Assembly (NCBI GenBank): GCA_937969495.1
Contig: CALBVY010000060.1
Span: 1 to 45,389, forward strand
Direction: 5' to 3'
Source: an uncultured Verrucomicrobiales bacterium
GTDB taxonomy: Bacteria; Verrucomicrobiota; Verrucomicrobiia; Verrucomicrobiales; Akkermansiaceae
DNA: 45,389 nt
A program made the position numbers and the translations under genes. The notes below the pieces were generated by a model. It had not been told where the DNA came from, ran no database searches, and saw only the letters and a program-made list of their open reading frames with translations. Shown here piece by piece: positions 3,841-42,921 of the stretch. Within the stretch, counting starts at the first letter, position 1; each line of letters opens with the position of its first letter.

Positions 3841-4833
3841 ATGAATGTTCTCGTTGTAGGAGGTGCTGGGTATATCGGCAGTCACTGTGTAAAACAGCTT
3901 CAAGCCGCTGGTCACCATGCATTGGTACTGGATAACCTTGTCTATGGGCACCGTGCCGCGGTCTCCAATGACACTCCCTTTTTCCAAGAAGACCTTGGGA
4001 ATCGAGCTGCTGTTAGCCAACTCCTCGTTGATCAGAAAATCGATATTGTCATGCACTTTGCCGCCTACGCCTACGTGGGGGAATCTGTCACCGAACCTCT
4101 TAAATATTACGAAAATAACACCGGCAATACCATTCAGCTCTTACTCGCCATGCAGGATGCCGGAGTGGATAAGTTTGTCTTCTCATCCACCTGCGCCACG
4201 TACGGAGAACCCAATACACTCCCCATCGTAGAAAACCTCCCTCAATCTCCCATTAACCCCTATGGCCAGACTAAGCTTCAGGTGGAAGCCATCCTCAAAG
4301 ACCTCGCCCATGTTGGTAAGATCTCTTCCGCCGTATTCCGCTACTTTAATGCCGCAGGAGCCTCAGAAGACGGCTGCATAGGCGAGCATCATTCTCCCGA
4401 AACTCACCTCATTCCTCTGGCCATTGATGCCGCTACTGGTAGACGTGCCGCGCTCAAAATCTTTGGCACAGATTACCCAACACCCGATGGCACTTGCCTG
4501 CGTGACTACGTCCATGTGGATGACCTCTCACGCGCGCACATCGCCGTGTTTGATCAGTTAGGAAAAGCTAACACATTCGTTGATTACAACCTCGGCACAG
4601 GGAGGCCTACTTCCGTCAAAGAAATCCTCACCGCTGTGGAAAAAGTTACAGGCTTCAAGGTACCAGCCGAAGACGCCCCACGCCGCGAAGGTGATCCCCC
4701 ATCCCTCTACGCAGATAATACCAAAGCTCGCACCGAACTAGGATGGGAACCCAAATACATGGACATTGAGTCCACCATCGCCACCGCCTGGAAGTGGCAC
4801 GAGAGCAATCCGGAGGGATATGCGGATCAATAA
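3841..4833 (+). CDS. galE: UDP-glucose 4-epimerase
   Basis: 330 residues from ATG 3841. The frame is open further upstream to 3754, but homologues begin at this methionine, directly before the NAD-binding GGAGYIGSHCV motif (residues ~7-17). The catalytic Ser/Thr region (FSSTCATYGEP) and the YxxxK pair (PYGQTKLQVE) are intact, as is the C-terminal substrate-binding region (YVHVDDLSRAH, then YNLGTGRPTSVKE). The enzyme interconverts UDP-glucose and UDP-galactose and so supplies precursors for cell-surface glycans, which fits the glycosyltransferase-rich end of the window even though the loci are not adjacent. ispG begins 26 bp after its stop, so the two are probably co-transcribed. Confidence 0.95.
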   Translation: MNVLVVGGAGYIGSHCVKQLQAAGHHALVLDNLVYGHRAAVSNDTPFFQEDLGNRAAVSQLLVDQKIDIVMHFAAYAYVGESVTEPLKYYENNTGNTIQLLLAMQDAGVDKFVFSSTCATYGEPNTLPIVENLPQSPINPYGQTKLQVEAILKDLAHVGKISSAVFRYFNAAGASEDGCIGEHHSPETHLIPLAIDAATGRRAALKIFGTDYPTPDGTCLRDYVHVDDLSRAHIAVFDQLGKANTFVDYNLGTGRPTSVKEILTAVEKVTGFKVPAEDAPRREGDPPSLYADNTKARTELGWEPKYMDIESTIATAWKWHESNPEGYADQ

Positions 4834-4859
4834 ATCAAATTAATTTACCACACCACTCT

Positions 4860-6653
4860 ATGCACTCAGACCTTTACTACTGCCCAGACTACTTTGCCTA
4901 CACACGTAGAAAATCACGTGAAATCACCGTAGGGAACGTAGGCATCGGCGGTGATAACCCCATCAGAGTGCAGTCTATGATCACCTCAGATACCCGTGAC
5001 ACGGAGGCATGTGTCAAACAGGTTCTTGATCTTGCTGAGGCTGGATGTGAAATTGTTAGGATCACCGCGCAAACAAAAAAATATGCGGAAAACCTAGAAC
5101 ACATCCGCGATGGTGTTCGAGCCGCCGGCTGCAATGTGCCACTGGTTGCCGATATCCATTTTAAGCCTGATGCCGCCTTCGAGGCCGCAAAATGGGTGGA
5201 GAAAATCCGAGTCAACCCTGGGAACTACGCTGATAAAAAGAAATTCGAGATCCGGGAATACACCGATGAACAATATGCTGCCGAGTTAGAGCGCATCCGT
5301 GAGGACTTTGCCCCGCTTGTAGCACTCTGCAAGGAGCTTGGACGCGCCATGAGGATCGGCACCAATCACGGTTCACTTTCTGACCGTATCATGAACCGCT
5401 ACGGTGACACTCCGCTCGGCATGGTAGAGAGCGCTCTTGAGTTTGCCCGCATTGCACGTGATCTCGACTATCACAACTTCTGCTTTTCCATGAAAGCCTC
5501 TAACCCCAAGGTAATGATCGAGGCTTATCGGCTACTCGTAGCGCGACTTGATCAAGAAGGTGATGACTGGAACTACCCCATTCATCTTGGTGTCACAGAA
5601 GCCGGTGATGGTGAGGATGGCAGGATCAAATCAGCTATTGGGATCAGCTCTCTGTTAGCCGATGGCGTTGGTGATACCGTCCGCGTTTCACTTACCGAAG
5701 ACGCTGTCTATGAAATACCTGTTGCCAAGGCCATCGTAGCCAGCATTGAACGCTCTCAGCTCAAAGAAGACCCCGCTGGCGCACAGCGCGGCACCCTGTC
5801 TTATGATCCATTTTCCTACCAAAGGCGTCTTAGCCATGAACTAGAAATTAATGGTCATAAGTTAGGTGCTAGTAATACCATCAGGGTATTCACCTCACGG
5901 AAAAAATGGGACGCGCTCGCACACAAGATCGATAAGCTGGGGGACTTCACCCCAGAAGCCATTGCAGAAGATTCTAACATTATCGAACTTGACCCTTGGG
6001 ACACGGCTTCCATCCAAGAAATTAACGCTGTGCAAGAGCCACAGCTAGTCACAGTCAAAGACGGCTGTCATGGCGCAGCTGTGATCCACGCATTCCGCCT
6101 GTTAGCATCTAAGCTATCCGCTCACCACCCTATCCTACTGAAGGACACCCTAACTCCCTCCAACGATAAAAACGCCGACTTCCTCGACAATTTAATTACC
6201 GCAGCACGGAACATTGGCTCTTTACTCTGTGATGGCATCGGTGACGCCATCCTCATCCAAGGAGAAGAAGCCCCCGGTCAATCACTCCGCCTCGCCTACA
6301 ATGTCCTGCAAGCCGCAGGCTCACGTATTTTCAAAACTGACTACGTAGCCTGCCCATCGTGTGGCCGCACCCTCTTTAATCTTCAGGAAACAACCCAAAA
6401 GATCCGTGCCGCAACAGGCCACCTCAAGGGGGTAAGAATCGCCATCATGGGCTGTATCGTGAACGGTCCGGGGGAAATGGCAGATGCAGACTTCGGCTAC
6501 GTCGGCGGCGCACCTAACAAAATTAATCTCTACGTCGGCAAACAAGCGGTGAAATTTAACATCCCCGAGGCAGAGGCTGTAGAACGTCTGATTGACCTGA
6601 TCAAAGAGCATGACAAATGGATCGATGCGCCTGTGGCTGTAGCTAATCCCTAA
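4860..6653 (+). CDS. ispG: 4-hydroxy-3-methylbut-2-en-1-yl diphosphate synthase (long form)
   Basis: 597 residues from ATG 4860. An in-frame start at 4794 would overlap the end of galE and is unlikely. The enzyme makes HMBPP from MEcPP, the penultimate step of the non-mevalonate isoprenoid pathway. The N-terminal TIM-barrel starts at RRKSREITVGNVGIGGDNPI. The [4Fe-4S] ligands are C498, C501 (CPSCGR) and C532 (GCIVNGPGE). Between the barrel and the iron-sulphur domain there is an extra region of about 200 residues (roughly 290-480). This gives the 'long' IspG architecture known from Chlamydiae, Bacteroidetes and plants, in contrast to the ~370-residue E. coli enzyme. It fits a Verrucomicrobiota origin. 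Confidence 0.95.
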   Translation: MHSDLYYCPDYFAYTRRKSREITVGNVGIGGDNPIRVQSMITSDTRDTEACVKQVLDLAEAGCEIVRITAQTKKYAENLEHIRDGVRAAGCNVPLVADIHFKPDAAFEAAKWVEKIRVNPGNYADKKKFEIREYTDEQYAAELERIREDFAPLVALCKELGRAMRIGTNHGSLSDRIMNRYGDTPLGMVESALEFARIARDLDYHNFCFSMKASNPKVMIEAYRLLVARLDQEGDDWNYPIHLGVTEAGDGEDGRIKSAIGISSLLADGVGDTVRVSLTEDAVYEIPVAKAIVASIERSQLKEDPAGAQRGTLSYDPFSYQRRLSHELEINGHKLGASNTIRVFTSRKKWDALAHKIDKLGDFTPEAIAEDSNIIELDPWDTASIQEINAVQEPQLVTVKDGCHGAAVIHAFRLLASKLSAHHPILLKDTLTPSNDKNADFLDNLITAARNIGSLLCDGIGDAILIQGEEAPGQSLRLAYNVLQAAGSRIFKTDYVACPSCGRTLFNLQETTQKIRAATGHLKGVRIAIMGCIVNGPGEMADADFGYVGGAPNKINLYVGKQAVKFNIPEAEAVERLIDLIKEHDKWIDAPVAVANP

Positions 6654-24971: not shown

Positions 24972-25706
24972 ATGAAAAATACACTAAAAAATATAAATAG
25001 ACACATCACGTCTCTCTCCTTGTTGTTTGTTTCAGTGACTGCCCTCAACGCTCAAACAGTGACCACTTATTTAGATCGTGCGACCTTCCTAGCCGAAGGG
25101 AATTTAGTCGCGAACGAAGATTTTGAAGGGTATGACGATACGGCCCTCAGCGTTTTTGTAAATAATAGCACCGCTTTTGATGGGATGACGATCACTACGG
25201 CTCCCGCTCAGAGTATAGCTAACGGATACGATCACAACATTCTCACTAACCCTTCCGATCCTACCCTCAACGGTTTTGGCAATATTACAGGACAGGGTTC
25301 GGCGTTGGGTCCAGCCTTAGCTAATAGTTCCCAAACTTTTGAGCTTTCCATTGATGTACCAGCAATTGGGATGGGCTATGACTACCTGAGTTGGTCAAAC
25401 TCATCCCACAATTCCGTTCACATCTTCGAGTTCGCCAACGGGAGTAGCTATTCGGTGAACCCAAAAGGGGATTTAAATACTGTCGGGGACGGTCTTGCCG
25501 ACTTTAGCGGTCTTGGTACGAGCGGTTTTTTTGGGTTGGTTTCCGATTCTCCAATTGTCGATTACCGCGTAGAGTTTCTTGCCTCAGGTTCCGTAGAAGG
25601 GTGGGGCATGGATAATGTTTCCCTTATCAATGTAGTTCCCGAGCCCAGTTCCACTATTCTTCTTGGCATGGCTGGTCTCGGGTTAATTTCTCGCAGGAGA
25701 AGATAA
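24972..25706 (+). CDS. PEP-CTERM sorting-domain surface protein
   Basis: 244 residues. The signal peptide spans roughly residues 1-28 (SLSLLFVSVTALNAQ). The mature part is a beta-sandwich-like Gly/Asn/Ser-rich domain (ATFLAEGNLVANEDFEGYDD, FELSIDVPAIGMGYDYLS, VEGWGMDNVSLI) like small carbohydrate-binding or adhesin modules. The C-terminus is a classical PEP-CTERM signal: VPEPSS, a hydrophobic helix (TILLGMAGLGLI), then SRRRR. Such proteins are processed by exosortase and attached to the cell surface or extracellular matrix; the exosortase is not in this window. The gene lies between two direct repeats with its own terminator. TTGACA occurs at 24918-24923, but no -10 box is correctly spaced. 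Confidence 0.92.
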   Translation: MKNTLKNINRHITSLSLLFVSVTALNAQTVTTYLDRATFLAEGNLVANEDFEGYDDTALSVFVNNSTAFDGMTITTAPAQSIANGYDHNILTNPSDPTLNGFGNITGQGSALGPALANSSQTFELSIDVPAIGMGYDYLSWSNSSHNSVHIFEFANGSSYSVNPKGDLNTVGDGLADFSGLGTSGFFGLVSDSPIVDYRVEFLASGSVEGWGMDNVSLINVVPEPSSTILLGMAGLGLISRRRR

Positions 25707-27720: not shown

Positions 27721-28080
<360 letters not shown>

Positions 28081-28109: not shown

Positions 28110-28125
28110 AGCAAGCATCGTGCCA
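28110..28125 (-). promoter_or_regulatory. Sigma-54 (-24/-12) promoter of glnB
   Basis: Minus strand TGGCAC, 5 nt, TTGCT (28125-28110) matches the sigma-54 consensus at all core positions with the GG and GC exactly 12 bp apart. The predicted transcript start is near 28099, about 31 nt before the glnB ATG. An NtrC-type activator would act from the 3' end of dprA; no clear site was seen there. Confidence 0.75.
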
Positions 28126-29348: not shown

Positions 29349-30545
29349 CTATGTTTGACCCGCATAGACTGCTACTGTCGCCTTCACAATACGGTTCCAG
29401 TCAAAAACCTCTTGGGCAAATGTGAAGCCTTGATCTGCTAATTGAGAGGCCAGCTCTTCATCATTAAGAATGCGCAGTATCGCAGCTCCTAATGCAGCCT
29501 CATCCTTCTCAGGTACCAGCAAACCTGTTTGCTCATGTTTGATAATATCAACAATCCCTCCGACGCCAGAGGCGACAACAGGTTTCCTATGGCGAAGAGC
29601 TTCGATGAGGACTACTCCGAGGCCTTCGGTATCACCTCGATCATCGAATATAGCTGGATGAACATAACACGTGCAGGTATGGTAAAGCTCTGCGAGCCGC
29701 TCACTACTGACAAACCCTGCCCACTCAACAACGTCTTCAAGACCCAGCTCCTTGGTAAGCTCCATCCATTCCGCCTTACAGTCGCCCTCTCCTGTGATGA
29801 CTACTTTGACTTGTTGTTTCTCTAAAATAGAAGGCAGAGCATTGAGTAAAATATGAAGACCTTTTCGCTGAATAAGCCTACCGCAGTTAAGTAACACGGG
29901 AGGGGTTGATACAGGGTAAACTTTACCAGCATCCGCAGCTTCTACAGTCGCCCCATAGGGAAGGATATTCACGTGGCGATCACACAGTTTTTTTACTTCA
30001 GTAGCAGTGTGCGAGCTATTAGCACATAGAGCGTCACCTGTAGATAATAGTGCCGCTAAAGCCTTTTTGATTAGGTTGCTATTACGAGCTAGAGCCAGCT
30101 CTGCACCGTGACAGGTCATGACGATCCGTGTGCCTAGCAGTTTCGAAGGTAGATACGACATGAAGCCATGAGGAAATGGCCAGTGCACATGCAGAACATC
30201 GAACTTTTTCCTCCAGCACCACCAGAAGACTGCAATAACTCCACATAGAATGTAGCTGAGAGCCCATATCTTGAAAAATGGCGACGATTGCTTGTTAGGC
30301 GCCCCTTCATCATGGGTCAGTGTTTCCCAGCGAGATGGTGCATATCTCCAACGAAGAACAGGAACCCCATCAATCTCATGATGAGGTAAGGCTCGCCAAG
30401 ATGGAGCGATAACAGTGACATCATGGCCATCTTTAGCTGTCCGATTGACAATCTCTCGCTGCCAGGGAACTCCTGGGTCTTCTTGGTTTCGTGGATACGT
30501 GGATCCTAGAACAGCTACGCGCAGTGGAGTTTCTGAGTGAGGCAT
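29349..30545 (-). CDS. Glycosyltransferase family 4 protein
   Basis: 398 residues, GT-B fold. The N-terminal domain has the usual donor-independent start (VLGSTYPRNQEDPGVPWQRE) and LHVHWPFPHGFMSYLPSKLL. The C-terminal domain has ILLNCGRLIQRKGLHILLNAL, VVITGEGDCKAEW, the EYA-like CTCYVHPAIFDDRGDTEGLG segment and the conserved E-x7-E nucleotide-sugar site (EGLGVVLIEALRHRKPVVAS). It probably adds a hexose to a lipid-linked glycan in the cytoplasm; acceptor and donor are unknown. It follows the GT2-REC fusion gene with a 12-bp gap, so the two are co-transcribed. Confidence 0.88.
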   Translation of the reverse strand: MPHSETPLRVAVLGSTYPRNQEDPGVPWQREIVNRTAKDGHDVTVIAPSWRALPHHEIDGVPVLRWRYAPSRWETLTHDEGAPNKQSSPFFKIWALSYILCGVIAVFWWCWRKKFDVLHVHWPFPHGFMSYLPSKLLGTRIVMTCHGAELALARNSNLIKKALAALLSTGDALCANSSHTATEVKKLCDRHVNILPYGATVEAADAGKVYPVSTPPVLLNCGRLIQRKGLHILLNALPSILEKQQVKVVITGEGDCKAEWMELTKELGLEDVVEWAGFVSSERLAELYHTCTCYVHPAIFDDRGDTEGLGVVLIEALRHRKPVVASGVGGIVDIIKHEQTGLLVPEKDEAALGAAILRILNDEELASQLADQGFTFAQEVFDWNRIVKATVAVYAGQT

Positions 30546-30557
30546 GGTGAGTTTGGA

Positions 30558-31985
30558 TTATTGAGTAACTTGGCGGGGCTGTGTATTCGCTGGTCTGATA
30601 GACTGGCTCAGTTGAATGGCTCGCCCCATCGTCTCCACCAGCTCACTGGCAATAAGGGGCTTCGATAAGAAATCAAATGCACCAGCCTTTATAGACTCTG
30701 ATCCATCCTTAGGTGAATCAGACCCGGAAAGCACAATAACTTGCGTATGTGGAGCCAGCACCTTCAACTTCGGAAGCACCTCTATGCCACTAATCCCAGG
30801 CAAATAAATATCTAACAATACAGCATCAAAATCATCGTTGATAGCCGCCATCGCTGACTCAGCGGTATCTACGGTAACGACATCCCAACCTTCCCTCTTT
30901 AGAATAGTCTCAGCAAGAGAACGCATAACCCCATCATCATCCGCTACAAGAATCCTTGGTGATGATGTTTCCTCACCTGATGAAGCATCAGAGAGACTAA
31001 TCACCTTAGACTTTGCTTCAGAGTTCACTATTTCTATCCGCTCACTGATGGGTAATGGATGCTTCTCTGAGTAATGCCTGTTCGTAATCATCTCTGCTAG
31101 AAAGCCGATCATTAACACCACTGGCGCGGTAAAAAGTGCAGCAGGTGCAGCAGATGCCATCGCCATGGAAAGGCCATTAGGGAAAAAGGGAATCAACGAT
31201 AACCCCCATAACCCGACAGCTAACATCAAACAAATAATAGCAATCCCCCCCATGAGGTGCAGCGGGCGTTCGCGGAAGTTTTTAATAAAATAAACCGACC
31301 ACATATCCATGAATCCACGGAGAAACCTCTTCACCCCATACTTAGAAACACCATGCACACGAGCGTGATGCTCCACTACGATCTCTGTTGTCTTAAACCC
31401 CTCTATAGAAGCTAACGAAGGAACCATGCGATGCATTTCACCGTACATAGGTAATGCTTTTACCACTTCTAAGCGATAGCATTTAAAGCCACAGTTATGA
31501 TCATGAAGCTTCACCCCATTCACCTTACTGAGCATGAGATTAAATACACGGCTCGGTAAAACCTTATGCCAAGGATCATGACGCTTCTCTTTAAACCCTG
31601 AAACAACATCCCAACCTTCACCCTCATTAATCTTTTCTAAAAATCTTGGTATCTCCTTTGGGTCATCCTGAAGATCTGCATCAAGGGTAAATACAATCTC
31701 ACCCGTAACCTCTGCATACCCTGCTGATAATGCCGGGGCTTTCCCTTGATTACTACGGAATCTGATCGCCTTCACATGCTCTGAATCTTGTTTCGCAATA
31801 TCCTGAACAACACTCCACGAATCATCCGTGCTACCATCATCAATAAAGATAATTTCCCACTCTCTTGCATGCTCATTAGCCTGCTCTGCAATTCTATCAT
31901 ACAGCTCTTGCAATGAATCCTCCTCATTCATCAAGGGGATAATAAAGCTAATTGTTGGTTTTTGTAAAATGGAGGATTTACTCAT
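30558..31985 (-). CDS. Polyprenol-phosphate GT2 glycosyltransferase fused to a receiver (REC) domain
   Basis: 475 residues in two parts. Residues 1-~310 form a GT2 domain of the dolichol/undecaprenol-phosphate sugar synthase type: ISFIIPLMNEEDSLQELYDR, FIDDGSTDDSW, the D-x-D pair D102/D104 in FTLDADLQDDP, NCGFKCYR, and two C-terminal membrane helices (about 242-266 and 277-300). After a low-complexity linker (315-342), residues 343-455 are a complete receiver domain: acidic D349-D350-D351, phosphoacceptor D392 (LLDIYLPG), S420 and K442 (SKP). The usual output DNA-binding domain is absent, so the glycosyltransferase may be the output. The gene follows the sigma-54 regulator gene on the same strand after 122 bp. 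Confidence 0.9.
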   Translation of the reverse strand: MSKSSILQKPTISFIIPLMNEEDSLQELYDRIAEQANEHAREWEIIFIDDGSTDDSWSVVQDIAKQDSEHVKAIRFRSNQGKAPALSAGYAEVTGEIVFTLDADLQDDPKEIPRFLEKINEGEGWDVVSGFKEKRHDPWHKVLPSRVFNLMLSKVNGVKLHDHNCGFKCYRLEVVKALPMYGEMHRMVPSLASIEGFKTTEIVVEHHARVHGVSKYGVKRFLRGFMDMWSVYFIKNFRERPLHLMGGIAIICLMLAVGLWGLSLIPFFPNGLSMAMASAAPAALFTAPVVLMIGFLAEMITNRHYSEKHPLPISERIEIVNSEAKSKVISLSDASSGEETSSPRILVADDDGVMRSLAETILKREGWDVVTVDTAESAMAAINDDFDAVLLDIYLPGISGIEVLPKLKVLAPHTQVIVLSGSDSPKDGSESIKAGAFDFLSKPLIASELVETMGRAIQLSQSIRPANTQPRQVTQ

Positions 31986-32107: not shown

Positions 32108-33466
32108 CTACATGAGCCCATGCCGCTTCATTTTGTTATAAATTGATTTCTCTGTTATTCCTAGCTTCCTAGAACATTCAGCTTTATTACCCCCGCAGAG
32201 TATCAATGTCTGCTGGATTGCTAACTTTTCTACTTCAGCAAGAGTCTGCCCGGCCAGCCCTGAAAACATGGCTGATTGATCTGATGATCCATCAATGCTA
32301 CCGGTCAAATCCTCTGGCGAGATCATATCATTTTCACAGAAAGCACAGGCACGTTCAATGCTGTTTTCCAGCTGACGCACATTCCCCGGCCAGTGATAGG
32401 TAATGAGTTTATCAACTGCCTCTGAGGTAAACTTAATTGCATTTCCCCCATGCTTAGCCGCTACACGGTCTGCAAAGCACTGCGCTAGAGGCATGATCTC
32501 ATCCGCCCTCATTCGTAAAGATGGAAGTTTAAGAGGTATCACACTAATGCGGTAGTAGAGATCTTCTCTAAATTCCTTCGTCTTTATTTTTTCTTCAAAA
32601 TCAATATTCGTCGCCGTGATGATCCTCACATCACAGTCGATGGCTTTCTCACCACCTACTCGGTAAAAAACTCTGTCCTGCAGCACATTCAGCAGCTTCG
32701 GCTGTAGATCGATGGATAAATCACCTATCTCATCGAGAAACAACGTCCCTCCCTGAGCAGCTTCTATTTTACCAATACGCTTCTGCAAGGCACCTGTAAA
32801 AGCCCCCTTTTCATGACCAAAAAGCTCGCTTTCTAATAATTCCCTAGGGAGAGCCGGGCAGCTCACCGTGATGAATGGTTTATCCGCTCTATGGCTATGA
32901 GAATGAATATAACGCGCTAAAACACCTTTACCTGTACCGCTCTCACCAGTCAGGAGCACTGAAGAATCCAGCTTGGCCACCTTTTCAGCTTTTTTCAGTA
33001 AACTCTTCATCCCATCAGACTCGGCAATGATACCCACTGATACAGATGATGATGACACACTATCTTTAAGCGATTGATTCTCTTTCTGAATGAGACTCAC
33101 TTTTTTCGCATTTCTCAGAGCCGTAAAGAGCTCGTTCATATCAAATGGCTTCGTGACATAATCATGCGCACCGAGTTTGACAGCCTTCATCGCCACCTCG
33201 GCATCATTCTCTCCACTGAGCATCACTACAGGGATATGAGGATGTGTTTTAGAAAGTTTCTGCAAACAAGCAAAGCCATCCATCACAGGCATATTAATAT
33301 CTAACAATAAAACCTCCACCTGATCATTCATGAGATCGAGCACCTCCGTACCATTTTCTACAGTAACGGGGCGGAAACCATAATGAGCTGATTTCAGCTC
33401 AAGTAAGTGACGGATAGTTCTATCATCATCTGCGATAATGAGGTTATAGTTTTCTGAATGACTCAT
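32108..33466 (-). CDS. Sigma-54-dependent response regulator (REC-AAA+-Fis), PrsR/NtrC type
   Basis: 452 residues. The N-terminal receiver domain has D13-D14-D15, phosphoacceptor D56 (LLDINMP), S84 and K106. The AAA+ domain (~145-380) has Walker A GESGTGKG at 174-181, the sigma-54-contacting GAFTGA loop at 221-226, Walker B TLFLDEIGD and the conserved WPGNVRQLEN. The C-terminal Fis-type HTH (~408-452) includes NKAECSRKLGITEKSIYNKM. It activates transcription from -24/-12 promoters when phosphorylated. Close types include PrsR, the regulator linked to PEP-CTERM/exopolysaccharide genes, which fits the neighbours but is inferred. It is divergent from the Hpt gene (42 bp). Its histidine kinase is not in the window. 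Confidence 0.93.
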   Translation of the reverse strand: MSHSENYNLIIADDDRTIRHLLELKSAHYGFRPVTVENGTEVLDLMNDQVEVLLLDINMPVMDGFACLQKLSKTHPHIPVVMLSGENDAEVAMKAVKLGAHDYVTKPFDMNELFTALRNAKKVSLIQKENQSLKDSVSSSSVSVGIIAESDGMKSLLKKAEKVAKLDSSVLLTGESGTGKGVLARYIHSHSHRADKPFITVSCPALPRELLESELFGHEKGAFTGALQKRIGKIEAAQGGTLFLDEIGDLSIDLQPKLLNVLQDRVFYRVGGEKAIDCDVRIITATNIDFEEKIKTKEFREDLYYRISVIPLKLPSLRMRADEIMPLAQCFADRVAAKHGGNAIKFTSEAVDKLITYHWPGNVRQLENSIERACAFCENDMISPEDLTGSIDGSSDQSAMFSGLAGQTLAEVEKLAIQQTLILCGGNKAECSRKLGITEKSIYNKMKRHGLM

Positions 33467-33508: not shown

Positions 33509-33850
33509 ATGAGCAATATGGATATTAAGATTGATACGAGCCAGCTCCTCGCATTAGCAAGTGACACCCCTGAAGTCCTCGTGCCCATTGTAGAACAGTT
33601 TCACGAAAACGCTGTGGAGCTAATAAATTCCATGAGAGAAGCACTGAAAATCTCTGATCACTCTGGTATTTTAAGTTATGTCCATCAGCTAAAAGGTTCG
33701 TCTGGAACTCTGGGGATGGTGTCACTTTATGAATCATGTCTAAGTTTGGAAAAAGGTTCTGCTGAGAGCATCAATGATGAAGTGTTAGGAAATATGCTAG
33801 AATTAGTTGAAAAATCCGTTCAGTTAACTTTGACCGCTTTAGCTGGCTGA
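33509..33850 (+). CDS. Stand-alone Hpt (histidine phosphotransfer) protein
   Basis: 113 residues from ATG 33509, four helices. The phosphoacceptor is H59 in the motif HQLKGSSGTLG, which matches the Hpt H-x-L-K-G consensus. Hpt proteins shuttle phosphoryl groups between receiver domains in a phosphorelay. Placed beside a REC-AAA+ regulator and near a REC-tailed glycosyltransferase, it is the obvious phosphodonor for both. No kinase domain is fused. Its last 31 bp overlap the 3' end of the convergent outer-membrane factor gene. Confidence 0.88.
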   Translation: MSNMDIKIDTSQLLALASDTPEVLVPIVEQFHENAVELINSMREALKISDHSGILSYVHQLKGSSGTLGMVSLYESCLSLEKGSAESINDEVLGNMLELVEKSVQLTLTALAG

Positions 33851-35265
33851 GGCAGCTCACCTCCTCCGAGAGCTTTAAAGAGCCTCACACTGTGCGCAGC
33901 ATGACGCCCTTCAGTAGCTAAAGACTCATCCTTGGTAATCAGGTAATCCTGCTGAGCATTCAGCAATCTCCGCAGATCAACCTCACCTACATCATAAGCA
34001 TTCATCATAAGCTCTGCCGTTTTCTGATGCTCTGCCGTAGCCTCCTGTAAGAGACGCTTCCTCTTTCCTGAGTAATGTAAACGAGTCATACTGTTCTCTA
34101 CTTGAGTCACCGCTTTGATCACCGTGCTTTCATAAAGAACAACCGCCTGGTCCAGCTTACTTTCATGCTCTCTAATACGATTATGAGCAGCACACCCCTG
34201 AAAGAGTTTCCACTTTAAGTTAGGCCCGAAGCCTAATGTCCTACGCAATGTGCTCGCTGAATTCACTCCAGTTAAAAATTCATACGTGAGCGCTCCTGAA
34301 ATAGAAAACTCAGGATATAGCTCTGCTGTGGCCACACCTATTAAGGCTGACTGAGCCGCTACCTTTCGCTCTGCACGCCTGATATCAGGACGCGACCTTA
34401 ATAAATCGATAGGGAAACCTGTCATGATGGACTTTGGAGGTTTCGGTATTCGCTGATGTTTACTAATGATACTCTTTATTTCAGCCGGCTTGATCGCGAG
34501 TAATGCGGCTAAGCGGTTCCTCACGACAATCTGTTCCTGCTCCAACTTTGGTATTTCAGCCGCACTCGTTTTTAACCTCGCCCTCGACTCATGCAGCTCT
34601 AGCTCACTGGTTAGACCCTCTTCTAATCGGCTCGATATAAGTTTTTCTATTTTTTGATAATTCTTCACCCCTTCACGCGCCACCTCTAACCTCTTCCCTA
34701 AAGTCCTATAGGCGATATAATGTAGTGCTACCTCGCCATTAATAAAAACAGTAGCATCTCTTAGCCCCTCCACTTTCGCTTCATACTCCGCAGTAGCTGA
34801 CTCGACTTGGCGTTTTACCTTACCAAATAAATCAGGATTCCAGCCTACATTAAGCTGCGCTAACTCATCATGAGATGAGCCAAAATCGAAATCAAAACCT
34901 TCTCTATCAAACGTACCCAAACCTTCACTAACACGAGAGTTAAAGTTACTGCTCGGAGACCACGCCCCCGCTAACACCGAGCGCTGATGCCATGACTCCG
35001 CGATCCGCGCGCTGGCAATCCTTATATTAGGGTTCGCCGTTCTCGATAAAGTAACCAGTTCGTTAAGCACGGGATCATTAAACTTTCGCCACCAACGTTG
35101 CGCACCTGTCTGCTTAGACTTATTATCTTGATCGATAGCTGCCGTCCACTCATCAGGCATCTGTATCTCAGGCCTTTCATAATCAGGGCCTACCACTGCA
35201 CAACTTGATATGATCAAAAGACCTAAACTAGAAAACAATCTCAGCTTTCTCATCCATAATTTCAT
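33820..35265 (-). CDS. Outer-membrane factor lipoprotein, NodT/CusC-type
   Basis: 481 residues from ATG 35265 (a GTG codon just before is less likely). The signal sequence ends in a lipobox (LIISSCAVVGPDYERP), so the mature protein is a lipid-anchored TolC-like channel. RPDIRRAERKVAAQSALIGV and RWWRKFNDPVLNELVTLSR are signature segments of this family, and the long helices (LEVAREGVKNYQKIEKLIS) form the periplasmic tunnel. Such proteins pair with HlyD/AcrA adaptors and an inner-membrane pump. The adaptor is probably the HlyD-like product of 36687-38066, but no pump gene is visible. Transcribed away from that operon across a 480-bp spacer. Confidence 0.92.
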   Translation of the reverse strand: MKLWMRKLRLFSSLGLLIISSCAVVGPDYERPEIQMPDEWTAAIDQDNKSKQTGAQRWWRKFNDPVLNELVTLSRTANPNIRIASARIAESWHQRSVLAGAWSPSSNFNSRVSEGLGTFDREGFDFDFGSSHDELAQLNVGWNPDLFGKVKRQVESATAEYEAKVEGLRDATVFINGEVALHYIAYRTLGKRLEVAREGVKNYQKIEKLISSRLEEGLTSELELHESRARLKTSAAEIPKLEQEQIVVRNRLAALLAIKPAEIKSIISKHQRIPKPPKSIMTGFPIDLLRSRPDIRRAERKVAAQSALIGVATAELYPEFSISGALTYEFLTGVNSASTLRRTLGFGPNLKWKLFQGCAAHNRIREHESKLDQAVVLYESTVIKAVTQVENSMTRLHYSGKRKRLLQEATAEHQKTAELMMNAYDVGEVDLRRLLNAQQDYLITKDESLATEGRHAAHSVRLFKALGGGELPQPAKAVKVN

Positions 35266-35273
35266 CACGATAC

Positions 35274-35624: not shown

Positions 35625-35746
35625 CAAAAAACCCCGTAAATACACATGTTGACTAGAGGTTCAAATAACTACGCTAGAACAAATTTAAAATTCTATAGTT
35701 GTGGAGAATGTCACCTTGGCTCATGAATACAGATAGATGTAAATCT

Positions 35747-36706
35747 ATGAAATCCCTTCTCAAATATACCCTCGTGCTACTGGGGCTCAGCCTCGCAGTC
35801 ATCGCTCTGCGAAGCCACTTGGAAAAAGTGCCCAGCCTTTTAGGCACGGTGGACTTGAGGTTTCTCATAGGAGCAATGATCGGGCTACTCCTCTACCAGC
35901 TATGGAATGCTAGCGTTTGGTCAGAGGTTCTTCATGCGATGGGCACTCAGTGTAAGCGTATCGACTGCACACGTATTTGGTTAGAATCAGAATCTCTGAA
36001 GTGGCTACCTGGAACAGTCTGGAGCTACGGCTCACGGATTGTTTCAGCTCAGAAGATAGGCGTCAGCAAGAAACTCGCCTCTGCTAGCATCATCCTCGAA
36101 CTCATACTCACCAATATCGCATGGGCAACACTAGCAACTACTATCGTATTCGCTAAGCCAGTGATGGCGATGGCAGCTCCTTATATTCAGCAAGGCTTTG
36201 ACTTTGTCTCGAACCAAGGCTGGCTAACGAGTGTCGCCGTTATCCTGTGCATTCCTCTGCTTATCTTTCTCGGGAATTTTATTTACCGTAAACTTAAAAC
36301 TAGTCCACGCTTCTCACAAGTCTTCCAGCTAGGGAAGCTTGATTACCCGAAATGCCTAGTCACGATCACCCACTACATCATCCTTTGCCTCTGGAATGCT
36401 ACGATGATGTGGCTCGTCTTCCAGTCCATCCCATCATTAGAGATTCCTTACCTCACCATCTTCGGAGTCGCAGGAGTGGCTTGGATGATCGGATTCTGGT
36501 CAATCGGTATCCCTGGAGGCATCGGAGTTCGGGAAGCTGTCATCGTAGTCATTCTGTCCCAATACGGAAATATCGAGTCAGGCGTGCTGGCTGCAATCGT
36601 ATGGCGCGGCGCACAAATGTTTGCCGAGATTTCAGCACTGCTCATTTCTCTCGCCTATGGCGCTAAACATCACTTTACAGCTCAACATGAAATCACTCAT
36701 CACTGA
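35747..36706 (+). CDS. Multispan inner-membrane protein, UPF0104/LPG-synthase-TM-like
   Basis: 319 residues from ATG 35747; earlier in-frame starts (35708, or TTG 35699) would put a hydrophilic tail before the first helix. About eight hydrophobic segments are present, among them LLKYTLVLLGLSLAVIALRS, FLIGAMIGLLLYQLWNASVW, ILELILTNIAWATLATTIVF and GVAWMIGFWSIGIPGGIGVR. The IPGGIGVREAVIVVI segment is the signature of UPF0104/YbhN-type proteins, which are proposed to move or build lipid-linked glycans or glycolipids. It is the first gene of a four-gene operon; its stop overlaps the adaptor start by 20 bp. Confidence 0.75.
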   Translation: MKSLLKYTLVLLGLSLAVIALRSHLEKVPSLLGTVDLRFLIGAMIGLLLYQLWNASVWSEVLHAMGTQCKRIDCTRIWLESESLKWLPGTVWSYGSRIVSAQKIGVSKKLASASIILELILTNIAWATLATTIVFAKPVMAMAAPYIQQGFDFVSNQGWLTSVAVILCIPLLIFLGNFIYRKLKTSPRFSQVFQLGKLDYPKCLVTITHYIILCLWNATMMWLVFQSIPSLEIPYLTIFGVAGVAWMIGFWSIGIPGGIGVREAVIVVILSQYGNIESGVLAAIVWRGAQMFAEISALLISLAYGAKHHFTAQHEITHH

Positions 36707-38066
36707 TAACAAAGGGGTTCTACTTCTCATTGGTATCGCCCTCATTGCTTTTGCCATTCTCACCTACTTCGTCATTCACCCCGCGTATTTAGACAAGAAT
36801 AATGGGATGTATGGCTCTAAGCTAGGCTACCCATCTCTCGTTCGCGCTACTGGCGGAAAAATAGAAGTTTCCACCACCACACCTAAAAGTCGCGAAATCA
36901 CGCATTATCTGATGGGTGAAGGTGTCTGCTCTAGCAAACCTATCTTAGTCCCCGTGATCCCAATGGCGATGGTGCAGGAGGTCCTCGTCGAAGAAGGTCA
37001 ACAGATAGAAAAGGGACAGCTCTTAGCTAAGCTAGAAAACGCCAAGGCTCTCATCAAATATGAATCTGCCAAGCTCGCCGTTTCCACTGCAGGCGCCGAG
37101 CTGGAGCGCGTGAAGCTAGGCTCAGCCTACGTGCTCGCACAAGAACGCCCTGAAGTAGAAAAAATCAATCTAGCATCCATTCTCGAACAACAAACCTTCG
37201 CTAAGCAACGGTTAGAAAGGTATGAAAAAGCTCATGCAAAAGGAGTTATCTCCAAGGTCGCCCTTCTGGAAGCAAAAGAAGCAGCCACCAAGATGGAGGA
37301 GCAAGTATCACGTGCTCAACTCTCAATGAAAATGGCTGAAAGCGGAGTTCAGCAAAGTATCCTCATTGCTGAGAACTCATATAACGACGCAAAGCAAGCC
37401 CTGGCTCACCGAGAGCAGGAACTCAAAGCTTACAACATTTACTCCCCCGTCCAAGGCATCGTAGACCGTGTTCTCATCAATACTGGCGAGTATAATCAAG
37501 ACAGTGGTAAACCAGGGTTTCTGATCTCTAGCAGCCTATGGTTTGATGCTTACTTTGATCAAGCAGACTTCCAACATATCACCACAGGTCTTGAAGCCAC
37601 CGTATCACTCGAGTCCTACCCTGGTAGTGAGTTTCCTGTAAAAACATCCATCATCAAACCTGTCATCAGCTTCAACAGTGGAGGCCCTGAAATATCGCGC
37701 CCGCTCCGCCCTCGTGGATCAGGTTCCCCAGAATGGGCAGCCACTTTCAAAGTAAAGTTAGATTTTGAAAAACTCGAAAATAACCAGCAGTCCATCGTCA
37801 CAGGGATGACAGGCTTCGCCCGACTAAAGATCACGAAACAAGCCACCACCGTCCCACGTAGTGCAGTCCTATCCATATCTGCCGGCTCGGGACTCCTCTA
37901 CATCGCAGAAGATGATGACTCATGGAGCTTACTGGAGGTTCGGATAGGACACGTCGATGAGCACTACGTGGAAATATTGACAACTCTAGATCCTGAAGCG
38001 CAGGTGATCACAGAAGGGCATAGGAGTTTGAAACCTGATGATAAGATTAAAGTCCATCGTTCTTGA
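36687..38066 (+). CDS. HlyD/AcrA-type periplasmic adaptor
   Basis: 459 residues from ATG 36687, which lies inside the end of the preceding gene (20-bp overlap, translational coupling likely). One N-terminal membrane helix (GVLLLIGIALIAFAILTYFV) is followed by a biotinyl-lipoyl-like half-motif (VQEVLVEEGQQIEKGQLLAK), a long coiled-coil hairpin (about 120-255), the second lipoyl half (AYNIYSPVQGIVDRVLINTG) and a beta-barrel/C-terminal domain. It would bridge the inner membrane and the NodT-type channel encoded just upstream on the other strand. The usual pump partner is absent. The C-terminal part is longer than in minimal HlyD proteins. Confidence 0.88.
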   Translation: MKSLITDNKGVLLLIGIALIAFAILTYFVIHPAYLDKNNGMYGSKLGYPSLVRATGGKIEVSTTTPKSREITHYLMGEGVCSSKPILVPVIPMAMVQEVLVEEGQQIEKGQLLAKLENAKALIKYESAKLAVSTAGAELERVKLGSAYVLAQERPEVEKINLASILEQQTFAKQRLERYEKAHAKGVISKVALLEAKEAATKMEEQVSRAQLSMKMAESGVQQSILIAENSYNDAKQALAHREQELKAYNIYSPVQGIVDRVLINTGEYNQDSGKPGFLISSSLWFDAYFDQADFQHITTGLEATVSLESYPGSEFPVKTSIIKPVISFNSGGPEISRPLRPRGSGSPEWAATFKVKLDFEKLENNQQSIVTGMTGFARLKITKQATTVPRSAVLSISAGSGLLYIAEDDDSWSLLEVRIGHVDEHYVEILTTLDPEAQVITEGHRSLKPDDKIKVHRS

Positions 38067-39417
38067 TCCTGACTGGCTGCCGAAGATGGTGAATTTCATC
38101 TTCGCCGGCATCGCGCTATTACTCGTGGGAGTATCATTGATACGTCCGTGGTATGCCATCCCCGGACTTTCATTTCTTCAGAATGGTGAGGTGGATTTTA
38201 TCACCACGGATTCAAGCTATACGCTGTTTTTTAAAGTAGCGCTCATTATTGTTACTTTATGCTTCCTGCTAGGTGTCTTCATTTTTAGAAAACACGTCAA
38301 TAGCTACGGCGGATTACTCATCCGCTACACGATCACTTGTTTCATCATCACGCTATGGTTTCCTACATGGCTGGCTTTGAGAGACGCGGATACGATAGGT
38401 GATGGAGCATGGCTTCAGCAGCAGCATGATACCATGACATGGTTAGGTGGCGATACTTATCGGGCACACGCTGAGCGCAGTATCGATCTCGGCACTGGTG
38501 TGAATGCACAAGATCCACCTGAGCGACTCGCAGTCTACCGGCCACCCACTGGCTCGCTCGGCATATCAAGACTCAATGACTGGATATGGTGGCTAGGCTA
38601 CGGCCCGGCCTTTACTCAGTTTGTCGGAAAAGGATGGTTCTACGCTATCTGTGGATATGGATTAGGCACGGTCTGCCTCTTCGGCTTCTACTGGCGTCGC
38701 CACATTCCCCGTGCGCGTAAACTCCTGAAGAAGCTCATCATCTTTCTATCTATCACCTTATCAATCACCGTAGGCATTTCAGTCAGCCTAGTCGTCATTT
38801 GTAAATATCAGCTCTCTAAAGCAGAGAAAGCCACAGCTCATGGCAACTACTCACAAGCTCGCCAGAGCCTAACAAACGCAATCAGAATCATGCCAAGCTT
38901 AATCAATGATAGCGGCATCATCAGGCAGCTAGGTTACTACGATGCTCAGCTAGGTAATGACGAATCTGACTTCGCACAGCTCTATCAAATCTCTTGGCTG
39001 GAAGATGAGGGTTACTACGGACGCGCTCGAAAAATTGTGAATAATCTATCCATCAAACAAAACGACATGAACCGAGCAGCCGCCCGAGAACTCTCACGTC
39101 ACCACCTCAGGATCGCTATTAACTTTATTAACTCTGGTAGATACCTCGTCGCTAGAGAACATCTCGACCACCTTCTGGAACAAGAACCCAATAGTCCACA
39201 AGCCTACTTCCACAGACAGCTCATCGCTACACAGACAGGCGAGCTAGAAACTAACAGGAGAATACACGAACTACTCCAAGAAGTCTACAAAGGCTATAAA
39301 AGTAAAAACAAACGCAGCGTCATCTCCGCCTCATGGTGGATGCTTTCTCAAGGCGAGCTAAATGCAGGAAATCTACACAAAGCGCGTGAGGCACGCATGA
39401 AGTCACAAGGACAATGA
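38038..39417 (+). CDS. Membrane protein with C-terminal TPR-like repeats
   Basis: 459 residues from ATG 38038, overlapping the adaptor gene by 29 bp; ATG 38086 (after a GAAG) is an alternative that removes the overlap. Five hydrophobic segments lie at about 17-36, 63-84, 92-113, 197-222 and 235-262. Residues ~265-459 are helical repeats of TPR type (AHGNYSQARQSLTNAIRIMP, SGRYLVAREHLDHLLEQEPN, LNAGNLHKAREARM). No family name is recognised. A TPR platform on a membrane anchor suggests assembly of the glycan machinery encoded around it. The last codon overlaps the next start as ATGA. Confidence 0.7.
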   Translation: MIRLKSIVLDPDWLPKMVNFIFAGIALLLVGVSLIRPWYAIPGLSFLQNGEVDFITTDSSYTLFFKVALIIVTLCFLLGVFIFRKHVNSYGGLLIRYTITCFIITLWFPTWLALRDADTIGDGAWLQQQHDTMTWLGGDTYRAHAERSIDLGTGVNAQDPPERLAVYRPPTGSLGISRLNDWIWWLGYGPAFTQFVGKGWFYAICGYGLGTVCLFGFYWRRHIPRARKLLKKLIIFLSITLSITVGISVSLVVICKYQLSKAEKATAHGNYSQARQSLTNAIRIMPSLINDSGIIRQLGYYDAQLGNDESDFAQLYQISWLEDEGYYGRARKIVNNLSIKQNDMNRAAARELSRHHLRIAINFINSGRYLVAREHLDHLLEQEPNSPQAYFHRQLIATQTGELETNRRIHELLQEVYKGYKSKNKRSVISASWWMLSQGELNAGNLHKAREARMKSQGQ

Positions 39418-42400
39418 GCCGTAAACCCAGCATCAATAGACGATCAAAGTGCACAGCCGCATTCTGGGTGACTGCGTCCCTATTTATGCTCTGGTGGTTT
39501 CTTAGTCATCAGAACTCTAACGACATCACCCGCTACCAACATAGCATCCCAGACGATGCAGACTGGATCACCACCCATAATGATACTCAGTATACGGGGA
39601 ATTTCAGAAAGGAAATACTCCTCAATGCCGATGTCAAATCCGCCTACATCAAAGTCATGTGCGATGGTGGCTACGAACTCCTCTGCAATGGTAATCCCGT
39701 AGGCGCACAAACTTACTGGCGACCTACCCGTGCCTATCAGAACGGACTCAGCGAATCAGGACAGCGAATCTCTGGCTTAGACCCTATAGTAAACTACAAC
39801 TTCCCCCGTGAGTATCAGTGGAGTGGTCACCGATACGATCAAACACTCACCGTCTTCGATCTCAGACCATTTCTCAAAAAAGGGAACAACGTCATCGCGC
39901 TATCCGCAGAAGGAAGAAAGGTGCAACCCACGATCCGCGCCTTCGGCGAAATCAAAACACGTGATAACAAAACCATCCAAATCCGCACTAATTCATCATG
40001 GAAAGCTGAGCCTATTCCTAAAGACGTGCGACAAAACAACTGGACGATCCCCACAATCAATACCAAGAGCTGGGATAATGCCATTCTCAAAGATCACTCA
40101 GCGACACCCCCTATCTCCACCGTGCCACCATCACTCTACGAGGTGCCATTCGCTGCCAAGTGGGTCATCGGAAAAAACACCAGCAGTGAAGATCAACATG
40201 CTTATGAATTCTCCGCAGACTTCGATGTAAAATCACACAAAAGCTCGTGGCTAAAAATACTCTCCCACGGGGACTTCTGGATCTGGATCAATGGTGAACG
40301 ACTTAACGTGAACCGATCTAAAAGAAAGGGCTACCACGGCGGAGAATGGCTCGTCTCATGGGAAGGCCGTCGCCCCCTCGCCACTCCACCTGTGTTACTT
40401 GACCCCGATGAAGCCTCAGACTTCTTCGGGGGTGATCGATTTAAAAACCCACGTCATGGAGACCCCACTGACAATGACTTCAAGGTATACGAAAACACGG
40501 CTAACCGTACACGAGAAAGACCTAACCAAACCAATGATCTCACCGTAGTCGATGAAGATGAAGAAAAAGGCAGACTCCAAGACCCCTATGGATTTCTCGA
40601 AGAGGCAGACCCCGCCGTCCCTCACTCCATTATCAGGAAACGCGCTAAGTCTACTCTCCAAGCCTACGACATCAGCCCTCTCATCCGCAGTGGTAAAAAT
40701 CATATCAAAATACGCCTCATCAACGGTTCTGAATATGGCTACCAAGGGAGCCAGCCAGTCAAGTTCGCACTCGATGGATGCATCACCGACTCTGCTGGAG
40801 AACAACAAAAACTCTCCAATCTATCATGGCAGATCAAACAGGGAGAAAGCGACCAGAAAGCAGTTATAGGAAACATAGTATCACCCACTGATCTACCACC
40901 AATGAAGTTCATGGGCGGCACCCACCAGCCTACCAAACCATGGATCATCGTCGCCTCTCTCATCGTCATCTTTTCACTAGCCTGCATTCTCAGTAGTCCA
41001 TCTATCAGGTTTCGTAAAACCTGCACCATCGTCACCATCACGCTAGTTATCGCCTACATCCTGCAGACCTGCTTTATGGAGCGTAGCGAATTAATATTTT
41101 TCACATCGACGAGCTGGGCATACACCGCCGTCTTTCTCTCCATCTCAGTAGCGATCATCATTTACTTACTTGGGAAAAAGCACCTTCATCCTTATCAGAA
41201 AAAAAGTAGATTTTCGAAAAGCCCCTACCTTTGTCTCGGCCTTCTCATTATCGTCTTTCTATCACGCGCATGGATGCTGCATGAGCAGCCTATCGATGAT
41301 GATGAATATGCCTCTATCCAGGCCGTCCTCGCTATCGCAGAAACAGGTAAGCCCTCTATAGCAGGTGATATCTGGTATAGCAGAAGCCCCCTCTACCACT
41401 ACTCTGCCGCACTCTTCGTAAAGGTATTTGGACCGAATATCTGGTCACTCCGTCTCTACTCCATCGTGCTCAGTGTTCTCACAGGCTGGCTCGTCTGGCT
41501 ACTCGCGCAGCGGTATTTCAAAGACCATTGGATAGCACCTATCGCGCTCATTATCTTTGCCCTCCACCCATTCCTGATCTTCAGCGGTCATATCGCACGT
41601 TTCTATCAGCAGCAGCAGCTCATGGTCGTCCTAATGATTCACCTATTTATTCAGGGCTTCATTTTCAAGAAATCTATCTGGCACCGCGCTGGCGCGATTC
41701 TCGCCTTCGCCTTCGCGGTATTAAGTCAGGAGATCAGCATCGGATTCGTCCCCGTATTTCTAATCACCTACTTACTCTTCGGTAGAGGTGTACCATTTAA
41801 GTGGGAGCTAAAGGCGGTGCTCTATCTCATCTTCGCAGGCGTTCTCATCGCAGCAGACATCTTACTTTTTAAAACCAAGTGTCTCACGCACAGCGTCGGA
41901 GTTTCACCCAATGTGGAAGCCACCCTTGCACCTACTTTCTGGGAGCTCGGGAATCTATTCTCCATGTTTATCGGTTACTCCCGCCTCCACCTTTTCCTGA
42001 GTTTCTTCTACATTTTTAGCCTCATTTACTCAGTTAGGAACGGATCTAGCAGGCTCATCACCCTGCACGCGTTTCTTCTCTTATCGATTATTATTTTTAA
42101 CTTCACAATCACCTCTGTCAGCTTCCGCTACATGTATTCTATCATCCCGTTATGGATTATTTTGGGAGCTCACGGTATTAGCATCTTTGCGAAATGGACT
42201 GCTAGTATCACAGACAAACACGTCTACCCCGTCATCATGGTAATAGGTGTATGCAGCGTTATCACCTCATTCTCTCCATGGCGTATTTTAGATTCCTATG
42301 ACGAAAAGATCCTAGGCGATCCAGTCTCCACTCTCGCCTATGTAAGATCAGAGATGAGACCTGATGACCGCATCATGATTACCGAGCCTCACCCTCATGC

Positions 42401-42764
42401 GGCGAAGATCGAGCTAGGCAGAGTAGACTATGATCTCGTCGTTCCCGTCCTCTATGATTTCACTTACAATAAAAATGGAGTCCTTCACGATAGAAATGGA
42501 GATGCCGTTGTCGTCAATCGTCTAGCCGATCTTCAGAAAATCTTCATCGAGCAAAAACGCGTCTGGATTATTCTGAATCGAGAAAAGTTCCGCTCACGAA
42601 AAAAAAATATCCGCTGGGAATACCCCGGTGCACGTGAAGAACTCTTCATCCGTCAGAACTGCGAGCTCAAATACAGCTCTTACCTCTGGTCAGCTTACCT
42701 CTGGGATCAATCTACCGGCGATATGAATACCTTCAGAAAAGAACCTGCCCAGTGGATAGAATGA
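39414..42764 (+). CDS. Exported beta-sandwich domain fused to a GT39/PMT-like membrane glycosyltransferase
   Basis: 1116 residues; the start is coupled to the previous gene (ATGA, 39414-39417). After a first membrane helix (~15-30) residues ~40-500 are an exported region with jelly-roll-like sugar-binding segments (YIKVMCDGGYELLCNGNPVG, HGDFWIWINGERLNVNRSKR) similar to the N-terminal domain of bacterial alpha-L-rhamnosidases. Residues ~509-1000 carry many membrane helices; the first loop holds D628-D629-D630-E631 (HEQPIDDDEYAS), matching the catalytic acidic motif of polyprenol-phosphate-sugar-dependent GT39/GT83 enzymes. The fused layout is unusual. It would use a lipid-P-sugar such as that made by the GT2-REC enzyme and act on the outer face of the inner membrane. 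Confidence 0.8.
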   Translation: MSRKPSINRRSKCTAAFWVTASLFMLWWFLSHQNSNDITRYQHSIPDDADWITTHNDTQYTGNFRKEILLNADVKSAYIKVMCDGGYELLCNGNPVGAQTYWRPTRAYQNGLSESGQRISGLDPIVNYNFPREYQWSGHRYDQTLTVFDLRPFLKKGNNVIALSAEGRKVQPTIRAFGEIKTRDNKTIQIRTNSSWKAEPIPKDVRQNNWTIPTINTKSWDNAILKDHSATPPISTVPPSLYEVPFAAKWVIGKNTSSEDQHAYEFSADFDVKSHKSSWLKILSHGDFWIWINGERLNVNRSKRKGYHGGEWLVSWEGRRPLATPPVLLDPDEASDFFGGDRFKNPRHGDPTDNDFKVYENTANRTRERPNQTNDLTVVDEDEEKGRLQDPYGFLEEADPAVPHSIIRKRAKSTLQAYDISPLIRSGKNHIKIRLINGSEYGYQGSQPVKFALDGCITDSAGEQQKLSNLSWQIKQGESDQKAVIGNIVSPTDLPPMKFMGGTHQPTKPWIIVASLIVIFSLACILSSPSIRFRKTCTIVTITLVIAYILQTCFMERSELIFFTSTSWAYTAVFLSISVAIIIYLLGKKHLHPYQKKSRFSKSPYLCLGLLIIVFLSRAWMLHEQPIDDDEYASIQAVLAIAETGKPSIAGDIWYSRSPLYHYSAALFVKVFGPNIWSLRLYSIVLSVLTGWLVWLLAQRYFKDHWIAPIALIIFALHPFLIFSGHIARFYQQQQLMVVLMIHLFIQGFIFKKSIWHRAGAILAFAFAVLSQEISIGFVPVFLITYLLFGRGVPFKWELKAVLYLIFAGVLIAADILLFKTKCLTHSVGVSPNVEATLAPTFWELGNLFSMFIGYSRLHLFLSFFYIFSLIYSVRNGSSRLITLHAFLLLSIIIFNFTITSVSFRYMYSIIPLWIILGAHGISIFAKWTASITDKHVYPVIMVIGVCSVITSFSPWRILDSYDEKILGDPVSTLAYVRSEMRPDDRIMITEPHPHAAKIELGRVDYDLVVPVLYDFTYNKNGVLHDRNGDAVVVNRLADLQKIFIEQKRVWIILNREKFRSRKKNIRWEYPGAREELFIRQNCELKYSSYLWSAYLWDQSTGDMNTFRKEPAQWIE

Positions 42765-42905: not shown

Positions 42906-42921
42906 TGGCACAGCCTCTGCA
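42906..42921 (+). promoter_or_regulatory. Candidate sigma-54 promoter of the DUF4114-like gene
   Basis: TGGCAC (42906-42911), 5 nt, CTGCA (42917-42921): GG and GC are exactly 12 bp apart, with one mismatch to the TTGCA core. The predicted transcript start, near 42932, leaves only ~4 nt before the ATG at 42936, which is unusually short and lowers confidence. Confidence 0.4.

Follow-up and report, generated by a model that had tools for sequence, protein, structure and literature searches.

Enzyme-level control of bacterial polysaccharide synthesis is best known from systems that act through c-di-GMP. A gene of an uncultured Verrucomicrobiales bacterium raises the question of whether phosphorylation can act on such an enzyme directly. 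The window analysed here, a stretch of 45,389 nucleotides (GenBank assembly GCA_937969495.1, contig CALBVY010000060.1), contains one reading frame in which a GT2 glycosyltransferase is joined to a receiver (REC) domain, and an earlier sequence-only reading had proposed that glycan precursor synthesis may be controlled directly by phosphorylation. Is the join a genuine feature of a lineage, or does it result from an error that links two genes? And, if it is genuine, does the REC domain control the enzyme, or does it serve another function?

The gene, here called GT2-REC, is an ATG-to-stop open frame of 475 codons, and the enzyme domain and the REC domain are on one polypeptide (Table 1). The Pfam matches bear out the single-frame join that had been described from the letters of the sequence, and every residue named at that time (D102, D104, D349–D351, D392, S420 and K442) is present in the translation. 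The acidic pair, the acceptor Asp, the Ser/Thr and the Lys of a receiver are therefore all there. The two membrane helices claimed for the protein are also found, by hydropathy at residues ~240–269 and ~274–302 and in an AlphaFold2 model (mean pLDDT 90.4, pTM 0.66; 48-row alignment) at 241–263 and 270–308. This model, a check that the sequence-only reading had suggested, gave a GT2 domain, the two helices, a poorly ordered linker at ~310–340 and a complete REC fold of alternating strands and helices at 344–463.

Table 1. Features of the GT2-REC gene and its neighbours, in coordinates of the window.
Feature	Coordinates	Strand	Basis or remark
GT2-REC fusion gene	30558..31985	-	475 aa
GT2 polyprenyl-phosphate glycosyltransferase domain (predicted), residues 13-176, DAD 102-104	31458..31949	-	Pfam PF00535 E 1.4e-31; ArnC, GtrB top by sequence and fold
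Two membrane helices, residues 241-308	31062..31265	-	AlphaFold2 model and hydropathy
Flexible linker, residues 309-343	30957..31061	-	Low pLDDT; among least conserved stretches
REC domain, residues 345-452	30630..30953	-	Pfam PF00072 (Response_reg) E 3.4e-24; fold complete in model
Codon of D392, predicted phospho-acceptor	30810..30812	-	Asp in 17/18 sequences
GT4 glycosyltransferase, next gene downstream of fusion	29349..30545	-	12-base gap; often linked to fusion
NtrC-like sigma-54 response regulator, REC-AAA-Fis HTH	32108..33466	-	Best NCBIfam TIGR02915, under cut-off
Free Hpt phosphotransfer protein, likely donor	33509..33850	+	Pfam PF01627 E 7.1e-13
NodT/TolC-type outer-membrane factor	33820..35268	-	Same neighbourhood
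LPG_synthase_TM-type membrane protein (flippase-like role a guess)	35699..36706	+	Same neighbourhood
HlyD/RND-type periplasmic adaptor	36621..38066	+	Same neighbourhood
Protein with weak TPR match	38038..39417	+	Same neighbourhood
PMT_2 GT-C-type transferase, plausible polyprenyl-phosphate-sugar user	39414..42764	+	Pfam PF13231 E 2e-13

The enzyme part has the GT2 fold (PF00535, 110.1 bits) and a DXD-type motif, and its membrane helices come after the glycosyltransferase domain. Among solved structures ArnC and GtrB are the best matches by sequence to the first part of the protein, and receivers led by the NtrC type to the second; the best fold matches are 9asc (ArnC, E 5.2e-23) and 3crn (a receiver, E 1.8e-11). 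Because ArnC and GtrB lead by both sequence and fold, we take this part to be a polyprenyl-phosphate glycosyltransferase, one that probably loads a sugar onto a lipid carrier. It is named neither ArnC nor PgfS since both NCBIfam cut-offs are missed, the ArnC equivalog model giving 169.7 bits where 529 is needed. The model of BcsA-like glycosyltransferases, PF13641, scores 27.6 bits against a cut-off of 27, over positions 1–128 of 230, far below the score of PF00535. A GT2 fold with membrane helices is also the architecture of ArnC, GtrB and dolichyl-phosphate-mannose synthase, but the matched chains are 322–374 residues long compared with 475 here, and to our knowledge none of these matched chains carries a receiver.

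The same in-frame join is present in 16 other full-length homologues and in one fragment at a contig edge (L058), all in Verrucomicrobiota records. With the window protein these make up a set of 18 fused sequences. Twelve of the full-length homologues belong to an alignment, A1, in which they share the join at 44–80% identity to the window protein, and four more came from a search of the order. The named strain Roseibacillus persicicus KCTC 12988 (locus L184) is among the carriers; it also has REC-less relatives and, if G024 is taken to be its genome, H-NOX and a single detected Hpt. Two fused sequences, L047 and L048, are from records assigned to the phylum only. The window's own genome has one GT2-REC gene. 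In a sample of 386 genomes of the order, 23 are matched by the A1 model at E<=1e-80, REC-less cases among them. Eight genomes of the window's family and four of a second family have full-length fusions, and a fifth genome of the latter (G235) has a split copy. Across the phylum, in 387 genomes with at most four candidates scored in each, no listed match (E<=1e-80) from outside the order reaches beyond model position 343. A scan of genome contigs with six short peptide patterns, which distant fusions could escape, gave 162 relatives; of the 80 that were listed, all fused ones belong to the Verrucomicrobiota. Two long candidates, L059 and L060, were rejected, the extra piece in each being a second GT2 and not a REC. 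The enzyme also exists without REC, in a related clade. At one REC-less locus, L054, the intact GT2 gene adjoins a second GT2-like frame (4072–5076), probably an inactive paralogue, whose DAD/QDDP stretch departs from the usual one.

Could the join nevertheless be an accidental fusion, or an assembly error, without function? This is scarcely credible. The recurrence of the join elsewhere led us to reject an artefact of assembly or sequencing, the 16 full-length homologues, that of R. persicicus included, carrying it in open frames; the error joining two genes that the sequence-only reading had held in reserve is contradicted by the same homologues. The sole point in favour of an accident is that REC diverges faster than GT2. 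Between the window gene and its nearest homologue dN is 0.137 for REC and 0.060 for GT2, and only dN is given because synonymous sites are saturated in nearly all comparisons. Against such saturation the REC protein changes little. The fusion is genuine, and it has been conserved under constraint.

The receiver site itself has been kept. The acceptor corresponding to D392 is Asp in 17 of the 18 fused sequences and the residue corresponding to K442 is Lys in all of them. Position 350 is Asp in 17/18 and position 349 Asp or Glu in 18/18, the acidic pair being complete in 17/18; a Ser or Thr stands at position 420 in 16/18. Only 11 of the 117 REC columns are kept in at least 17 sequences, and D350, D392 and K442 are among them. 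This pattern speaks against the REC being a structural pseudo-receiver that works independently of phosphorylation, which we regard as decidedly improbable, although two kinds of homologue would suit it. In L047 (2163–3587) Asn replaces the acceptor Asp and the Ser/Thr is absent, and in L048 (4988–6388) the acidic pair is partly lost and the Ser/Thr is again absent; in addition, the clade of 14 REC-less rows manages without the domain. These degenerate active sites weaken a universal role for REC, and together with the REC-less clade they weaken any strict requirement for phosphorylation. The two sequences may be a case in which the switch has been lost and the domain retained.

Phosphorylation might also act without touching catalysis. 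The REC could be a phosphorylation-regulated docking or clustering module that governs binding to a partner, entry into an assembly complex or the oligomer state of an enzyme whose activity is unchanged. Per-element conservation, calculated on 16 rows with L047 and L048 left out, places the linker among the least conserved stretches, and a linker that is both disordered and variable would be compatible with docking. So would the values in the eight closest homologues, in which beta5 is fully conserved (1.00) and alpha4 (0.85) exceeds alpha1 (0.56), and the presence among the nearest folds of a GtrB entry whose title calls it a tetramer. However, alpha5, part of the usual dimer face of REC domains, is weakly conserved (0.64), and no candidate partner was identified. 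We consider docking unlikely, though it deserves to be kept in view.

How did the enzyme come by its receiver? In a GT2 tree of 61 rows (fragment L058 left out, one identical pair, L020 and L056, included), the 17 fused rows group together with 14 REC-less ones (96/98). Within it the REC-less rows are a clade of their own (99/96) beside three fused rows (89/79). The REC label needs two changes on this tree, which means either a single gain with a later loss or two independent gains. In the tree of REC domains, from which the duplicates L118, L121, L124 and L125 were left out and in which L007 and L122, the same gene, both stand, a single origin of the 18 fusion RECs has a support of 43/92, which neither establishes nor refutes it. 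Their side of the tree also contains the RECs of the neighbouring NtrC proteins and two further rows, and those of the kinases lie on the other side, with weak support for the split (85/56); an origin from the neighbouring NtrC gene is favoured no more strongly than that.

In the window the NtrC-like gene is followed after 122 bases by the fusion and, after a further 12, by the GT4 gene; the Hpt gene, on the far side of NtrC, is oriented divergently. TIGR02915, the PEP-CTERM-box response regulator, is the best NCBIfam match of the NtrC-like neighbour, yet its score of 415.8 is below the curated cut-off of 502.6. About 6 kb from this regulator lies a gene for a PEP-CTERM protein (24972–25706, +; TIGR02595, 24.8 bits against a cut-off of 16). 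Members of the set of NodT/TolC, GT4, LPG_synthase_TM-type, HlyD, TPR-like and PMT_2 genes recur near both fused and REC-less homologues in varying order and number, and a few loci, such as L192, have none of them. The combination of a GT2, a GT-C-type transferase and an adaptor/outer-membrane pair would fit the assembly of a glycan that is secreted or displayed at the surface.

A scan of the window for the sigma-54 consensus gave 18 matches where 23.6 are expected by chance. None lies between the NtrC-like and fusion genes, and control of the fusion gene by NtrC is therefore unsupported by the scan. Corresponding scans gave 12 candidate sigma-70 promoters (9.2 expected) and seven candidate terminators (4.4 expected). 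The sole exact sigma-54 match (28110–28125, -), in a window whose count is not above chance, is 41 bases before a P-II gene (27721–28068, -). A site with one mismatch (42906–42921, +) is 14 bases before the start, at 42936, of a gene for an 807-aa protein with DUF6923 and DUF4114, which may be a target or a substrate of the cluster.

If the REC is phosphorylated, where might the phosphate come from? The sequence-only reading had named the neighbouring Hpt protein as a donor to be tried. The gene does encode an Hpt by Pfam, but the gene for H-NOX, a haem-NO (nitric-oxide) sensor, and a kinase of the expected kind are on another contig of the genome, C35, where H-NOX is 9 bases before a hybrid kinase. 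This kinase has 50% identity to one that is linked to the fusion at another locus, L188, where a single 11.8-kb contig carries H-NOX, hybrid kinase, Hpt, NodT/TolC, GT2-REC, GT4 and HlyD. At L187 the H-NOX, kinase and GT2-REC genes follow one another on one strand, with GT2-REC 108 bases after the kinase and Hpt divergent, and no NtrC relative was found in that genome at E<=1e-110. A REC-Hpt protein, H-NOX, kinase, GT2-REC and NtrC are together at L190 (genome G209) and L191 (G348). At L194 kinase, REC-Hpt and GT2-REC are neighbours, the REC-Hpt gene ending 103 bases before GT2-REC. In G068 the fusion is on a short contig, and a different one holds Hpt, NtrC, H-NOX and a kinase of which the first 60% is matched. 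H-NOX adjoins a histidine kinase gene at L187, L188 and L050 as well as on C35. The haem His and YxSxR, which we take to be the H-NOX motif, are both present in 32 of 33 H-NOX rows, some genes being repeated among the rows and that of the window's genome included; the remaining row has YxSxR only.

Linkage differs among the 18 fused loci. Nine of them (the window, G129, G022, G005, G029, G209 C22, G348, G212 C88 and G235 C51) have an Hpt or such a kinase in the stretch or contig examined, and neither was found in the stretch or contig examined at the other nine, four of which are on contigs of less than 9 kb. Further observations count against control of the enzyme by this relay. The fusion's contig lacks a kinase of this kind in the window's genome and in G068, G024, G011 and G005, and in R. 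persicicus a different kinase/response-regulator pair, ~7 kb from the fusion, would be a rival phosphate donor. Of the 13 fusion genomes searched, which do not include the sources of L047 and L048, all have an Hpt (a single match in nine) and 12 have H-NOX (7/8 in the family and 5/5 outside it, one of these a partial match); H-NOX was not found in G029. Close NtrC relatives (E<=1e-110) are present in nine.

The NtrC relatives bear on a further explanation, that the REC is a phosphate sink or a branch of the relay that tunes the level of phospho-NtrC, with the enzyme a mere carrier. NtrC and GT2-REC are on the same strand in the window with Hpt adjoining NtrC, and the weakly supported position of the fusion RECs beside those of NtrC would agree with such a role. 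Yet at this threshold no NtrC relative was found in four of the fusion genomes, G022, G029, G266 and G212, although a more diverged regulator is possible in them. A sink is on these grounds improbable. In G022 the fusion is beside H-NOX, kinase and Hpt, and with no close NtrC found there this genome gives the best indication that GT2-REC is itself an output.

REC-less relatives adjoin similar H-NOX, kinase and NtrC genes, which indicates that the relay does not need GT2-REC. Clusters in which H-NOX accompanies a REC-less GT2 (L050, with H-NOX at 1296–1826, L051 and L053) are natural controls against which the contribution of REC can be judged. Five kinases had suggested that a kinase with two REC domains marks the fused clusters; this was dropped because G025, whose close GT2 is REC-less, matches the kinase over both RECs.

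H-NOX is present in 36 of the 195 genomes of the family, in 7/8 with the fusion compared with 29/187 without it (Fisher p 3e-5, uncorrected for relatedness). When every genome with a close GT2 relative, fused or not (best E <1e-90), is counted, the figures are 17/18 against 19/177 (p 1e-13, likewise uncorrected for relatedness). All ten genomes that have only a REC-less GT2 also have H-NOX, so H-NOX tracks the glycan cluster and not the fusion alone. A search for GGDEF domains in the 13 fusion assemblies, which are 85 to 97% complete, gave no match in 11, the window's genome among them, a clear match in G235 and a weak one in G212; eight of 14 control genomes matched. The lack of GGDEF in these 13 genomes may be general in the order, which counts against it as evidence for control by the relay.

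Direct control of the enzyme by phosphorylation, the proposal from which we started, is the best-supported reading of these observations, and it is partly supported. In its favour are the kept REC site, the low REC dN, the linkage of phosphorelay genes at L188, L187 and L194, the co-occurrence of H-NOX and Hpt with the fusion, and the GGDEF domains that were not found; the REC-less clade and the degenerate receivers of L047 and L048 weigh on the other side. GT2-REC would then be a membrane-bound response regulator with an enzymatic output. Its N-terminal domain would transfer a sugar onto polyprenyl phosphate at what is predicted to be the cytoplasmic face, and phosphorylation of D392 in the C-terminal REC, carried on a flexible linker, would raise or lower that activity, to a large or a small extent. 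The phosphate would come from an H-NOX-controlled hybrid histidine kinase by way of the kinase's own REC domains and Hpt, and the same Hpt would also feed the NtrC-like regulator. One putatively NO-responsive signal could in this manner set both transcription and an enzyme step of surface-glycan assembly. For this explanation as a whole, with a relay that phosphorylates NtrC for transcription and GT2-REC for enzyme activity, we see an even chance. The stronger version, in which an H-NOX relay in cells without detectable c-di-GMP cyclases bypasses second messengers and phosphorylates a lipid-linked-sugar synthase as one of two outputs beside NtrC, is offered tentatively and may well prove wrong.

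A fusion of REC with a GT2-type enzyme is not in itself new. In one report, three genera of Methanobacteriaceae are described as having REC fused to a BcsA-like glycosyltransferase, the MTH_548 type (PMC5847659), and the fusion as such is already published there. In both types a single protein contains REC together with a GT2-type domain, and the distribution among lineages is narrow. By that description, however, the MTH_548 type is archaeal, with a BcsA-like glycosyltransferase (PF13641) and one or two RECs, while GT2-REC is bacterial, ArnC/GtrB-like and has two membrane helices. The nearest parallel to the relay is in Vibrio fischeri, where HnoX with NO inhibits the kinase HahK and syp polysaccharide is lowered, through a circuit of HnoX, HahK, SypF (Hpt) and SypG/SypE (PMC12369376). 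The accessible parts of that account name no REC-glycosyltransferase fusion; here the second output would be a biosynthetic enzyme. In the main text, as available, of a paper on aspartate-less receivers the term 'glycosyl' is absent (PMC4395418). Full-text literature searches on glycosyltransferases with receivers and on H-NOX, covering few subscription papers, yielded no bacterial GT2-REC that could be recognised from the titles and abstract openings of the matches listed.

GT2-REC is thus read as a new form of the enzymatic response regulator, placed in what is probably an NO-responsive phosphorelay. A candidate kinase, phosphotransfer protein and sensor are at hand, with the natural REC-less relative as a control, and a clear biochemical test is possible. 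If the proposal is true, a lipid-linked-sugar synthase with a receiver of its own would give these bacteria a direct two-component route to the control of polysaccharide synthesis.
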